Assembly (NCBI GenBank): GCA_022792335.1
Contig: JAAWAV010000001.1
Location: 1 to 50,418, forward strand
Reading direction: 5' to 3'
DNA length: 50,418 nucleotides
From: Lachnospiraceae bacterium
GTDB taxonomy: Bacteria > Bacillota > Clostridia > Lachnospirales > Lachnospiraceae
The translations under genes and the position numbers were made by a program. How positions within the stretch are numbered: position 1 is the first letter of the stretch; each line of letters opens with the position of its first letter. The notes beneath the pieces are model-generated. The model did no database searches. It was not told the DNA's origin and saw only the letters and a program-made list of their open reading frames with translations. Shown piece by piece: positions 11,120-27,191 of the stretch.

Positions 11120-11137
11120 CTGAAAAGGAGGATGATT

Positions 11138-12322
11138 ATGTTAAGCAGAATCGCTCAGAATATTACTCCGTCCGCTACCTGTGAGCTGGAGGGGGTTGTA
11201 GCCGATATGAAAGCGGCGGGCGTGGATATCATCGGTATGAATGCCGGGGAACCGGATTTTGATACGCCGGAGAACATCAGAGACGCCTGTAAAAAGGCCC
11301 TGGATGAGGGGGCGACCAGATATGTCAATGTACCTGGAATTGCCGTACTTCGCCAGGCAATCTGCGAGAAGCTAAAGAGAGATAACAGAGTAGAGTATAC
11401 GCCGACTCAGATCTGTGTATCCACTGGGGCAAAACAGGCCTTAAACAATGCAGTGATGGCAGTGGTCAACGCAGGGGATGAAGTCATCATTCCCATGCCC
11501 GGCTGGGTAAGCTATGTAGAAATCGTAAAGCTGGTGGGCGGCGTGCCTGTCTGTGTGGATACCAAAGAGGACTTCCAGCTTGACCTGGAGGCGATTGAAA
11601 AAGCCATTACGCCAAAGACAGCGGCTATTATGATCAATACGCCCAACAATCCCACCGGCGCCGTTTATACCAGAGAGAGTCTGGAGAAGCTGGCCGCTCT
11701 TGCCGCCGCTCACGATTTTTACATTATTTCTGACGAAGTGTATGAGAAGCTGATTTACAATGGAAAGGTTCATGAGTGCGTGGCTTCTTTCTCTGAGGAA
11801 GCTTACAATCATACCATCCTGATCAACGGAATGTCCAAGGCTTTTGCCATGACAGGCTGGAGGTGCGGCTATACGGCGGCTCCGGAAGAAATCGCTGCAG
11901 GTATCAACGCCATCCAGGGCCATACGACTTCCAATGGGACTACCTTTGTGCAGTGGGCTTCGGTAGAGGCTTTAAAGAACAACGATGAGAGTATCAAAGA
12001 GATGGTGGCAGAATACGCCAAGAGAAAAGATTATACCTATGGACGTCTGACGGCGATGGAGGGGATTACCTGTGCCAACGTGGACGGAGCCTTCTATCTG
12101 CTTCCCGATGTGAGCTATTATTTCGGAAAGAAGTATAATGGAAAAGAGATCAAAGATTCTTTTGACTTTTGCAGTTATATTCTGGAGGAGGCTCATGTGG
12201 CCATTGTTCCGGGCGGAGCCTTCAACGCGCCGAAGTGTGTGAGAATCGCCTATACCAATTCCATGGAGAAAATCGTGGAAGGTATGGATCGGTTGGAGAA
12301 AGCGCTTAAAAAATTACAATAA
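11138..12322 (+). CDS. Class I/II PLP-dependent aminotransferase (aspartate/aromatic type)
   Basis: The 394-residue enzyme shows the fold-type I features NAGEPDF, NTPNNPTGA, ISDEVYE and the Schiff-base lysine motif GMSKAFAMTG, followed by GWRCGY. The ATG at 11138 is 6 bases after AAGGAGG. An ATG at 11132 overlaps that ribosome binding site and is unlikely. The enzyme should turn an amino acid into its 2-oxoacid, the substrate class of the oxidoreductase at the start of the operon. It is the last gene before a long hairpin element, which may end the transcript. Confidence 0.9.
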   Translation: MLSRIAQNITPSATCELEGVVADMKAAGVDIIGMNAGEPDFDTPENIRDACKKALDEGATRYVNVPGIAVLRQAICEKLKRDNRVEYTPTQICVSTGAKQALNNAVMAVVNAGDEVIIPMPGWVSYVEIVKLVGGVPVCVDTKEDFQLDLEAIEKAITPKTAAIMINTPNNPTGAVYTRESLEKLAALAAAHDFYIISDEVYEKLIYNGKVHECVASFSEEAYNHTILINGMSKAFAMTGWRCGYTAAPEEIAAGINAIQGHTTSNGTTFVQWASVEALKNNDESIKEMVAEYAKRKDYTYGRLTAMEGITCANVDGAFYLLPDVSYYFGKKYNGKEIKDSFDFCSYILEEAHVAIVPGGAFNAPKCVRIAYTNSMEKIVEGMDRLEKALKKLQ

Positions 12323-12341
12323 ATAAGGGGCGGGGTTGCCT

Positions 12342-12561
12342 CTGACAGCCGAAATCCGGTAACGGACAGGCGCCCCGCTCTCTGTTTTCCTCTATGTCGA
12401 TTCTGAGGTTTTGTGCGCAGCCGTTTGCTGTCTGTCTCTGATTTTACAGAAGCAGATTAGCGTGACGGACGAGCTTATGCTCATGAAACCTGTAGAATCT
12501 GACAGCAGATGAAAACAGAGAGCGGGGCGCCTGTTTGTTATCGGATTTCGGCTATCGAAGG
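12342..12561. repeat. Long palindromic element, copy 1 (related core, long complementary arms)
   Basis: This fills most of the 366-base gap between the aminotransferase and the gntR gene. GCCGAAATCCG (12348-12358) pairs with CGGATTTCGGC (12542-12552). Further in, ACAGGCGCCCCGC and CTCTGTTTTC pair with their complements at 12508-12533, and GATTCT and AGGTTT pair with AAACCT and AGAATC. The folded hairpin is over 200 bases. The core (about 12397-12500) resembles the core of the second element at 26681-26913, for example TTTTGT, GCTC and GACGGACGA against GACAGACGA. The outer arms differ. Identity is unknown: a structured RNA, an oversized terminator or a non-autonomous mobile element. Confidence 0.7.
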
Positions 12562-12688: not shown

Positions 12689-13369
12689 ATGTCAGGAACA
12701 AATTTTGGCTCCAACCCGTCTTTGAAACAGCTTGCTTATGACAACCTGAAACAGAGAATTATAAGCGGGGAGCTGAAGCCGGGATACCGACTGCGGGAGG
12801 AGGACTTGTCTGCGGAGATGAGTATCAGTCGGGCGCCCATTCGCGAGGCGCTTAATATGTTAGAGCGGGATGGATTTACCACCATTGTGCCCAGAAAAGG
12901 CGCTTTGGTGTCAGAAGTGCTGAAGGAAGATATCCGTTATATTTGGGAAATGCGAGCACTCCTGGAGCCTTACGCCGCCAGGCTGTCTACGGATCAGATT
13001 CCGGAAGAGAAGATTGGAGAGGTAAAAAAGAAGCTTCAGAAAGTCTTTGATCATCCGGATGACTTGGCGCAGTATGTCAATTCTGATTTGGAGGTTCATC
13101 AGATGTTGGTGGATTATCTTCAGAACCGGTTTTTAAAAAGTACTCTGGAGAATATGAAAGCCCATTCTCTGCGGATTCGTTGGGCGGCTGAATATGATAA
13201 TGAGGAAACTCAGACCAGTATCGTGGAAGCGGCGACACAGGAACATATGGAGATTGTTCATGCTCTGGAAAAACGAGACGAAGCTCTGGTTTACCAGGTA
13301 GTGAAACGACATCTGGAGAATGGAGCGGAACGGCTTTTGGGGGCCAATTATGTGAATTATGGAGGATGA
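12689..13369 (+). CDS. GntR family transcriptional regulator, FCD (FadR) subfamily
   Basis: A 226-residue regulator. Residues about 10-75 form the winged helix-turn-helix (GYRLREEDLS, SRAPIREALNMLERDG). Residues about 85-215 form the all-helical FCD ligand domain, with the Asp and His residues expected to hold a metal and a carboxylate effector (DLEVH, EHMEIVH, RHLENG). The ATG at 12689 follows TAAGGAGG; an upstream in-frame TTG at 12668 is not favoured. FCD regulators usually bind ATTGTnnACAAT-type sites. Two such sites occur in the window, at 5424 and 13548, so this protein probably controls the oxoacid operon and the neighbouring NRAMP-like operon in response to an organic acid. Target assignment is inference. 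Confidence 0.88.
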   Translation: MSGTNFGSNPSLKQLAYDNLKQRIISGELKPGYRLREEDLSAEMSISRAPIREALNMLERDGFTTIVPRKGALVSEVLKEDIRYIWEMRALLEPYAARLSTDQIPEEKIGEVKKKLQKVFDHPDDLAQYVNSDLEVHQMLVDYLQNRFLKSTLENMKAHSLRIRWAAEYDNEETQTSIVEAATQEHMEIVHALEKRDEALVYQVVKRHLENGAERLLGANYVNYGG

Positions 13370-25840: not shown

Positions 25841-25926
25841 ACAAAGGATACCATCGATGACAAGAGGATATATGTTCCAAGCCGCATGATCTGTCCTTGT
25901 CTATCGAGGATAAGGAGGGAAAAGCG

Positions 25927-26679
25927 ATGGAATTTAAGACCTTTTGTACGGGAACCCATACCACCTACCAAGAGATACGGATGGAGCATGATTTGATCCA
26001 CAAATTTTATGAAATCGGGAATCCTATGCAGGAGAAGATCTTGTCGATTCCGGACGGCTGCGTCAATATCTGGTTTTTATGGAATCAGGGAAAATGTCAT
26101 GCCCGCCTTATCGGAAGCGCATTGATGGGAAAGCCGTCCCTGGTCAGTAACCATGAGCGCTGTTTTGGAATCAAATTCAATGCGGGAGTAGTACCAGAGG
26201 TATTTTTAAATGACATCGGCCATATTATCAATAACAACTGCCCAGTCAATATTTATAAAGATATTACTTTTATGGAGAAGGCTGTGGAGCAAATGGGGAG
26301 TTTTGAAGAACGAGTCCTCTATATGCTGGAGCGGGACAATGTATTTGGAAAAAACCAGGTCAATACCATTACGAAACTGATTGTGGAGGATGTGGCGAAC
26401 AGAATGGGGAACCTGGCTGTCTCTGAACTGGCGCAGGCGTTAGGTTACAGCCAGCATTATACCAATCTGGTGTTTCGTCAGAACATCGGGATGCCCATCA
26501 AGCAATATTCCGGTATTGTGCGAATCCAACAGGCAATTTATGGAATTGAGAAGAAAAGCCACGACTTTCTCTATGAAAGTCTGGGATATTATGATCAGTC
26601 TCATTTTATTCGGGAGTTTAAACGGTACACGCTTTTGACTCCAAAATCTTATGACAAGGATGACTGGATGTTCGTATAA
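25927..26679 (+). CDS. AraC family transcriptional regulator
   Basis: A 250-residue regulator. The C-terminal about 100 residues carry two helix-turn-helix motifs of the AraC type (VSELAQALGYSQHYTNLVFRQ and LGYYDQSHFIREFKRY regions). The N-terminal part (about 1-130), with IPDGCVNIWFLW, resembles the small beta-barrel sensor domain of DUF6597-type AraC proteins. The ATG at 25927 follows AAGGAGGG; an in-frame earlier start at 25897 is disfavoured. The hairpin element at 26681 begins directly after its stop. It is a likely local regulator of the M20/enolase-superfamily/SSS operon downstream. Confidence 0.85.
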   Translation: MEFKTFCTGTHTTYQEIRMEHDLIHKFYEIGNPMQEKILSIPDGCVNIWFLWNQGKCHARLIGSALMGKPSLVSNHERCFGIKFNAGVVPEVFLNDIGHIINNNCPVNIYKDITFMEKAVEQMGSFEERVLYMLERDNVFGKNQVNTITKLIVEDVANRMGNLAVSELAQALGYSQHYTNLVFRQNIGMPIKQYSGIVRIQQAIYGIEKKSHDFLYESLGYYDQSHFIREFKRYTLLTPKSYDKDDWMFV

Positions 26680-26680
26680 G

Positions 26681-26913
26681 GGCGACTGCAAAAGCGGGGC
26701 CTTGGCCGGCAGCCTGACATCCCGGTAACACTCCGGTCCACGTTGATTTTTTGGTTTTGTTGCGTCGCTATTTGCCCTCTGCCTCTGCTTCCATAGAAAC
26801 TGGTCAGCGAGACAGACGACGCTATGCTCACAAAACCCGCAAAATCTGCCTATCGGACTGGAGCGTTACCGGGATGTCAGGCTGCCGGCCAAGGCCCCGC
26901 TTTTGCAGTCGCC
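26681..26913. repeat. Long palindromic element, copy 2 (49-bp perfect arms)
   Basis: The outer arms are perfectly complementary for about 49 bp. The left arm starts GGCGACTGCAAAAGC (26681) and ends CCCGGTAAC; the right arm ends GCTTTTGCAGTCGCC (26913). Inside, CTCCGGTCC pairs with GGACTGGAG with a G-U, then GATTTT with AAAATC, and GGTTTTGT with ACAAAACC. The element begins one base after the araC stop. Its core resembles that of 12342-12561. A short TTTATTT follows the right arm. Open reading frames across it on both strands repeat one peptide because of the palindrome and are not genes. Confidence 0.75.
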
Positions 26914-27191
26914 TTTATTTGGCTTTCTTAATTTTGTTCGGAATTTTCATTTCTGAGTCGGAAATTTCTTAATTATCTGAAGCATTTATGTCCATTTCCT
27001 ACAATATTTTTTGCATATTAATTTTGTAAAATAAAATCAGGATTTATTTTCTAAAATGTCTTTTAAATCAAACATGGAACTTTGATTTTACATATAAACT
27101 GATAAAATATCAAATCATAAATATTCTTGTTTTAAAAACACAATGTAAAGAAAAACACAAAAAAGAATAACGAAAAGGGGGAGGATTGGCA
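26914..27191 (+). promoter_or_regulatory. A/T-rich upstream region with inverted repeat
   Basis: This stretch is far richer in A/T than its surroundings. AAATCAAA (27065-27072) and TTTGATTT (27081-27088) form an inverted repeat with an 8-base gap, a candidate operator for the adjacent AraC-like protein. A weak promoter could be TTTGAT (27081-27086) with TAAAAT (27103-27108), 16 bases apart. GGGGGAGG precedes the ATG at 27192. Confidence 0.4.

Follow-up and report, generated by a model that had tools for sequence, protein, structure and literature searches.

What is a palindrome whose long outer arms differ from those of its relative in the same genome and still pair with each other, and what keeps such arms paired? 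This question is raised by an element at 12342..12561 of the window, i.e. of the whole 50,418-nt stretch of Lachnospiraceae DNA analysed here, and by a second palindrome in the same window, hereafter the 26681 element.

RESULTS

Two palindromes at gene ends have related cores

The 12342 element is one of four inverted repeats of at least 20 nt within 400 nt in the whole window, and the coordinates given to it in an earlier note on this DNA proved correct to within 3 nt (Table 1). The spacer between the arms measures 113 nt in this element and 115 nt in the 26681 element. When folded as RNA, the 12342 element had z-scores of −16.3 on the + strand, a value equalled by none of 200 shuffles, and −14.7 on the − strand, while that of the 26681 element was −20.1, far better than its shuffles.

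The earlier note had taken the two cores to be related. In blastn searches of either window element against its own genome, the other element was not listed at E up to 10, so that a profile was needed to reveal the kinship: model R2, for which 12 cores other than that of the 12342 copy had been used, recovered the 12342 core with 70.7 bits and E 1e-18, bearing out the claim, and model R1, the alignment of which includes that copy, gave 107.8 bits. The 12342 copy is diverged, the 3′ half of its loop 1 reading CTGACAGC, as against CTKCCTAYC in most copies. Both copies lie at a gene end as had been noticed, the arm of the 12342 element being separated by 16 nt from the aminotransferase stop (12322) and the 26681 element overlapping the AraC-type gene at its stop codon. 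Their vicinity to a regulator gene was also confirmed for the two window copies, but a wider link did not hold up, as an HTH domain was present in one of six neighbours of four further own-genome copies. The ten neighbours scanned against Pfam comprised aminotransferase, GntR, AraC, M20 peptidase, MmeI, FtsX, acyltransferase, 3H/HTH, ABC-2 and acetyltransferase genes; with so few genes scanned, a tie of the elements to regulator genes is unsupported.

Table 1. Coordinates of the two palindromic elements and their neighbouring genes in the window
Feature	Coordinates	Strand	Basis or remark
Aminotransferase class I/II gene, upstream of the 12342 element	11132..12322	+	Pfam PF00155, E 1.3e-75
Left arm, 12342 element	12339..12393	+	Inverted repeat I2, 55 nt, 87% complementary
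Core, 12342 element	12390..12510	+	R2 and R1 scores; two internal loops between stems plus apical loop; diverged family member
Right arm, 12342 element	12507..12561	+	Inverted repeat I2, 55 nt
GntR/FCD regulator gene, downstream of the 12342 element	12689..13369	+	Pfam PF00392, PF07729; start codon is the analyst's choice
AraC-type regulator gene	25897..26679	+	Pfam PF12833, E 5.3e-12; stop codon inside the left arm of the 26681 element
Left arm, 26681 element	26676..26739	+	Inverted repeat I1, 64 nt, 95% complementary
Core, 26681 element	26736..26857	+	R1 134.5 bits, R2 132.2 bits; member of both models' alignments
Right arm, 26681 element	26855..26918	+	Inverted repeat I1; T run after stem segment, both strands

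The elements belong to a multi-copy family of Lachnospiraceae

The collection of further copies, which the earlier note had recommended, yielded many more: 15 R1 matches (E up to 0.01) in the own genome, with 12 among the matches listed, and up to 70 in a single genome of the genus. Matches to R1 were found in seven of 11 genus genomes (70, 34, 29, 15, 15, 13 and 4) and none in the other four, the richest carrier being G007 with 70. Within the family Lachnospiraceae, searched with stricter filters than the genus, the element was present in 19 of 397 genomes, and at the class level in one of 391, i.e. the own genome. An exact pattern matched 103 stretches in public genome contigs, the 80 titles listed all being of Lachnospiraceae, Lachnotalea, Blautia, Faecalicatena, Clostridiales or Eubacteriales and one match lying in Faecalicatena contorta ET51, and it had no match in viral contigs; blastn with one core returned nothing among plasmids and nothing among phages, and a search for the GntR protein among viral contigs led nowhere. 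No Rfam 15 covariance model matched the elements, and no earlier account of such a family in Lachnospiraceae was found, going by titles and abstract openings. A stretch of 5.8 kb in G006 (L162, C44:1200-7000) contains four model matches.

Conserved loops alternate with covarying stems in the core

By eye, the outermost parts of an element are end repeats common to a subfamily; the variable arms follow, then loop 1, a stem of ~15–17 bp, loop 2 and a third stem with the apical loop. Loop 1 is mostly CACGTYG opposite CTKCCTAYC and loop 2 mostly CTGCGCCGCCTWT opposite GCTATGCTC; both are largely conserved across genera at nearly fixed spacing, while the letters of the stems change. Mean core identity among the twelve own-genome copies was 0.72. 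In 91 cores, 96.8% of the stem cells were paired, compared with 38–55% in slid controls, and double changes occurred in 21 of 23 pairs, amounting to 321 double-change cells versus 83 in shuffles, in an alignment that had been fitted to the tested structure; the core stems covary. Nearly all stem cells are Watson-Crick, with 32 G.U and 26 A.C against 1940 Watson-Crick cells. These counts replaced earlier ones in core orientation, which had shown opposite G.U:A.C trends in stem B (101:20) and stem C (7:43) and are presumed to have been dominated by recurrent columns.

Longer core forms were observed as well. Four G004 loci (L308, L320, L321 and L322) carry an insert of ~90 nt that separates the loop halves GCTAT and GCTCG and apparently contributes two further hairpins, and apparently related 3′ parts of the insert-bearing form occur in the own genome near L039:913-943 and L040:995-1020. 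In the cores of L135, L138 (second copy), L167 and L308, the stem that separates the two loops contains a similar palindromic insert of ~35 nt.

Arms are private to each copy and remain complementary

The arms range from 25 to 80 nt. Their pairing was scored in 121 of 123 parsed copies, after exclusion of one copy without a found end and one at a contig edge, giving a median of 29 within a copy versus 1 for arms of different copies. In 109 of the 121 copies the score exceeded the cross-copy 95th percentile (score 12), which extends to the family what the note had described for the window, namely arms that differ between copies and pair within each. The cross-copy control has a maximum of 38, higher than the within-copy median (29), probably owing to closely related copies, and among the 12 failing copies are some whose arm foot is bulged, a feature penalised by the gap cost. 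Among the twelve own-genome copies, left–right arm identity within a copy averaged 0.84 (minimum 0.43), whereas left arms of different copies were 0.51 identical, against a shuffled baseline of 0.48.

Orthologous copies allowed arm changes to be followed between species. Of 16 ortholog pairs, nine had diverged arms, and the arms of these had changed together, their identity being 0.87 within a copy versus 0.76 between species (p 0.008); in the seven less diverged ones within-copy identity was not above that between species; the cut of 0.90 between the two groups is the analyst's choice, three of the 16 pairs come from one locus, and L111/L227 (short arm) and L036/L273 were left out. By eye, several of the changes extend over contiguous bases as a block and affect both arms. 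An ungapped count over 15 of 19 ortholog rows (four being too diverged) gave 25 compensated double changes, 151 one-sided changes and 60 double but unpaired changes, the latter two classes being inflated by register shifts. The core was more alike than either flank in nine of the 19 ortholog rows and not in the remaining rows. At one pair of loci, L137 (G010) and L155 (G004), there are no differences in the core or in the innermost 45 nt of either arm, with flanks 85–87% identical, which suggests exchange or strong conservation.

The core is inverted relative to its flanks at six of 16 ortholog loci compared. In two of four inversion pairs tested the arms had kept their side, indicating that the core alone had flipped, and an inversion may also stem from an independent insertion in the opposite sense. 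Four ortholog pairs matching in one flank only (L034/L117, L038/L156, L033/L247 and L160/L252) were left out of this comparison, and all have the same orientation. Template switching is described in passages of PMC8604942 as a cause of both arm homogenisation and spacer inversion in inverted repeats, and in passages of PMC8794818 it is made responsible for compensatory changes in RNA genes and for the inversion of their loops. Because template switching can, according to these passages, maintain pairing without selection, kept pairing alone does not prove selection.

Filled and empty sites, target duplications and the mobilising enzyme

At one relative's orthologous site, which adjoins the upstream gene's stop codon, the own-genome copy L036 is absent together with both arms (231 nt). 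An origin of the arms from host sequence was considered and is ruled out, since the whole element including its arms is absent at the empty site. G004 likewise lacks four copies, all of one subfamily, that are present in G010: the empty site of L123 is clean, that of L120 retains a stretch resembling an element end, and the surroundings of L119 and L124 do not align cleanly and have no target repeats. Three of the five filled/empty comparisons are clean or nearly clean at the ends. As for the 12342 copy, its empty site is imprecise because its flanking genes are not adjacent in relatives; the element is missing after the same aminotransferase gene in three of them. Some copies have lost the core, as seen at the site of L139 (G004), which in G010 is occupied by an 85-bp form without it (L311).

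A subfamily of ~235 bp has AT-rich direct repeats of ~8 bp around its copies. In this one subfamily, of which 24 of 25 copies were included (L151 was omitted for its poor left end, and both members of two ortholog pairs were kept), target duplications of at least 6 exact bases were determined in 11 of 24 copies, and their mean was reached in 0 of 5000 permutations; AT-rich sites inflate chance repeats, with 27% of cross-copy pairs reaching at least 6.

The elements possess inverted ends, which differ between subfamilies, and this is unusual for one transposase. Among end-pattern matches with up to 3 mismatches, no autonomous partner or longer element with the same ends was found, as no pair lay at transposon distance. 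An HUH transposase was considered as the mobiliser and rejected as unlikely, because the Y1 family (Y1_Tnp) is absent from five of the seven genus carriers (G000, G004, G005, G006 and G007, some genomes being incomplete); it has partial matches in the carriers G009 and G010 and is present in G002, which has no element. In G007, a subfamily end repeat (GGGGCTGTTGCAAAATATAA) has 63 matches and its reversed pattern 0, and paired repeats of this kind spanning 47 bp, too short for a core, occur for example at C18:20911-20957 and C55:108694-108740.

Few elements lie between divergent genes, and arms show a transcribed-strand G.U excess

Following the earlier suggestion to check positions relative to gene ends, we classified 122 copies, a set that includes orthologs; a presumed spurious ORF spans 25 of them, and 13 have one neighbour unknown. 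The 84 copies with both neighbours called comprise 31 convergent, 49 co-directional (19 along and 30 against) and only four divergent ones, in agreement with a placement at the 3′ ends of genes; a null of 25% divergent is the analyst's assumption, and no figure reported here rests on it. Terminator-like stems with a T run occurred on one strand or both in 51 of 121 copies, including 24 that had them on both, as against 4 of 400 cross-copy controls; the other 70 copies did not show this pattern. The site of the own-genome copy L032, a convergent one, bears other hairpins in three relatives; at this site G007 has a long palindrome (L339, C46, about 111313-111511), by eye of another family.

Arm mismatches were then compared as G.U versus A.C on a given strand. 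In core orientation the ratio was 203:218 (109 copies), and 23:11 for own-genome arms alone (p 0.06). A purely DNA-level reading was first favoured from the equal 203:218 and was partly reversed when the arms were oriented by the neighbouring gene, which gave 127:75 in 47 copies after removal of nine near-duplicate orthologs and of arms scoring under 12. This transcribed-strand G.U excess was displayed by 34 copies and opposed by 10 (sign test p 0.0004; label permutation p 0.002). Co-directional copies alone yielded 108:71 (40 copies, permutation p 0.013), convergent copies 50:56 (28 copies) with no excess, and genome G004 ran against it with 18:22; the core stems oriented by gene gave 16:12 (36 copies), i.e. 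no such effect. The excess is what transcript selection would leave, and strand-biased C-to-T mutation could mimic it. The earlier proposal of selection on structure is thus upheld in part: the transcribed-strand excess speaks for it, whereas the lack of a G.U bias in core orientation and the inverting cores speak against it.

DISCUSSION

We regard it as fairly probable that both window elements are non-autonomous, MITE-like mobile palindromes of Lachnospiraceae, the arms of which are kept paired by template switching together with selection on the transcript. Upon insertion, an element would become part of a transcript end, often as an outsized and sometimes two-way hairpin resembling an intrinsic terminator. 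Its arms would drift fast yet stay complementary through two joint forces. One is template switching during replication, by which one arm would be copied from the other and the core could be turned round; the other is selection favouring a hairpin on whichever strand is transcribed from the adjacent gene. Recognition of the folded element by a putative enzyme is the probable role of the two loops, which are largely conserved.

Other explanations share much of this evidence. Strong core-stem covariation, loops largely conserved across genera and the G.U excess in arms on the transcribed strand would all suit a structured non-coding RNA, e.g. a 3′-UTR regulator, with stems under RNA selection, spread by duplication and only incidentally mobile; such an RNA is nevertheless unlikely, given core stems that are almost wholly Watson-Crick and show no gene-orientation effect, elements lying in both orientations relative to co-directional genes, cores inverted between orthologs and Rfam without a match. 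The co-change of the arms and the inversion of the core would equally follow if the family were made of neutral palindromes, i.e. mobile repeats without host function and with arms homogenised by template switching, a mechanism that passages of PMC8604942 and PMC8794818 describe in other inverted repeats; deletion derivatives, which exist, fit as well. Complete neutrality appears improbable in view of loops that are largely conserved across genera though the stems change, of the ortholog rows in which core similarity exceeds that of either flank (nine of 19, not the others) and of the transcribed-strand G.U excess.

The largely conserved loops with their nearly fixed spacing (by eye) and variable stem letters, the almost strictly Watson-Crick covariation and the core inversion would also be consistent with a protein site in folded DNA, where the two loops around the ~15–17 bp stem would be recognised, in the form of a cruciform or single-strand hairpin, by a recombinase or transposase which would also invert the core. 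We give this a small chance, Y1 transposases being absent from five of the seven element-bearing genus genomes. It seems to us rather unlikely that we are dealing with a shape-read mobile element, in which the conserved loops at nearly fixed spacing form the folded-DNA recognition site, any arm that pairs with itself can spread, and movement is accompanied by core flipping and by domestication as a gene-end hairpin.

If the MITE-like reading with template switching and transcript selection holds, the family would add a mobile source of gene-end hairpins among gut bacteria. Covariation is widely taken as proof of functional RNA, and the family supplies many natural palindromes in close relatives with kept pairing and flipping cores, in which a strand-resolved G.U test can assist in telling DNA copying apart from selection on RNA.

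Among known systems, integron attC sites combine a variable sequence with a conserved fold and unpaired positions, and the Lachnospiraceae element seems alike in this; it differs from attC in its very long variable arms and two large loops, and no cassettes were noticed. Intrinsic, including two-way, terminators have a GC-rich stem beside a T run at gene ends, a pattern borne by 51 of 121 copies of the element, which is far longer and has a conserved internal core. Like REP/RAYT systems as described in passages of PMC3733652, the elements are palindromes, many per genome and many downstream of genes; unlike REP stems, which are given there as 5–13 bp with a GTAG or CGTC tag, their arms are 25–80 nt, and the Y1 family is absent from the richest carrier. 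There is also a likeness with bacterial MITEs such as Correia/NEMIS, ERIC/RU-1 and RUP, which passages of PMC2229807 depict as small, non-autonomous, intergenic elements of about 100–200 bp with mostly inverted ends, target duplications in some and transcripts forming long stem-loops. The Lachnospiraceae element is likewise short, multi-copy, absent from empty sites and flanked by target duplications in one subfamily; it departs from the MITEs of that account in its ~235 bp, in a partner transposon not being found and in a core that inverts between orthologs, and its outer arms differ between the copies of one genome while the core alone is common. We read the family as a new one of the MITE kind, unusual in its common core, private arms and core inversion.
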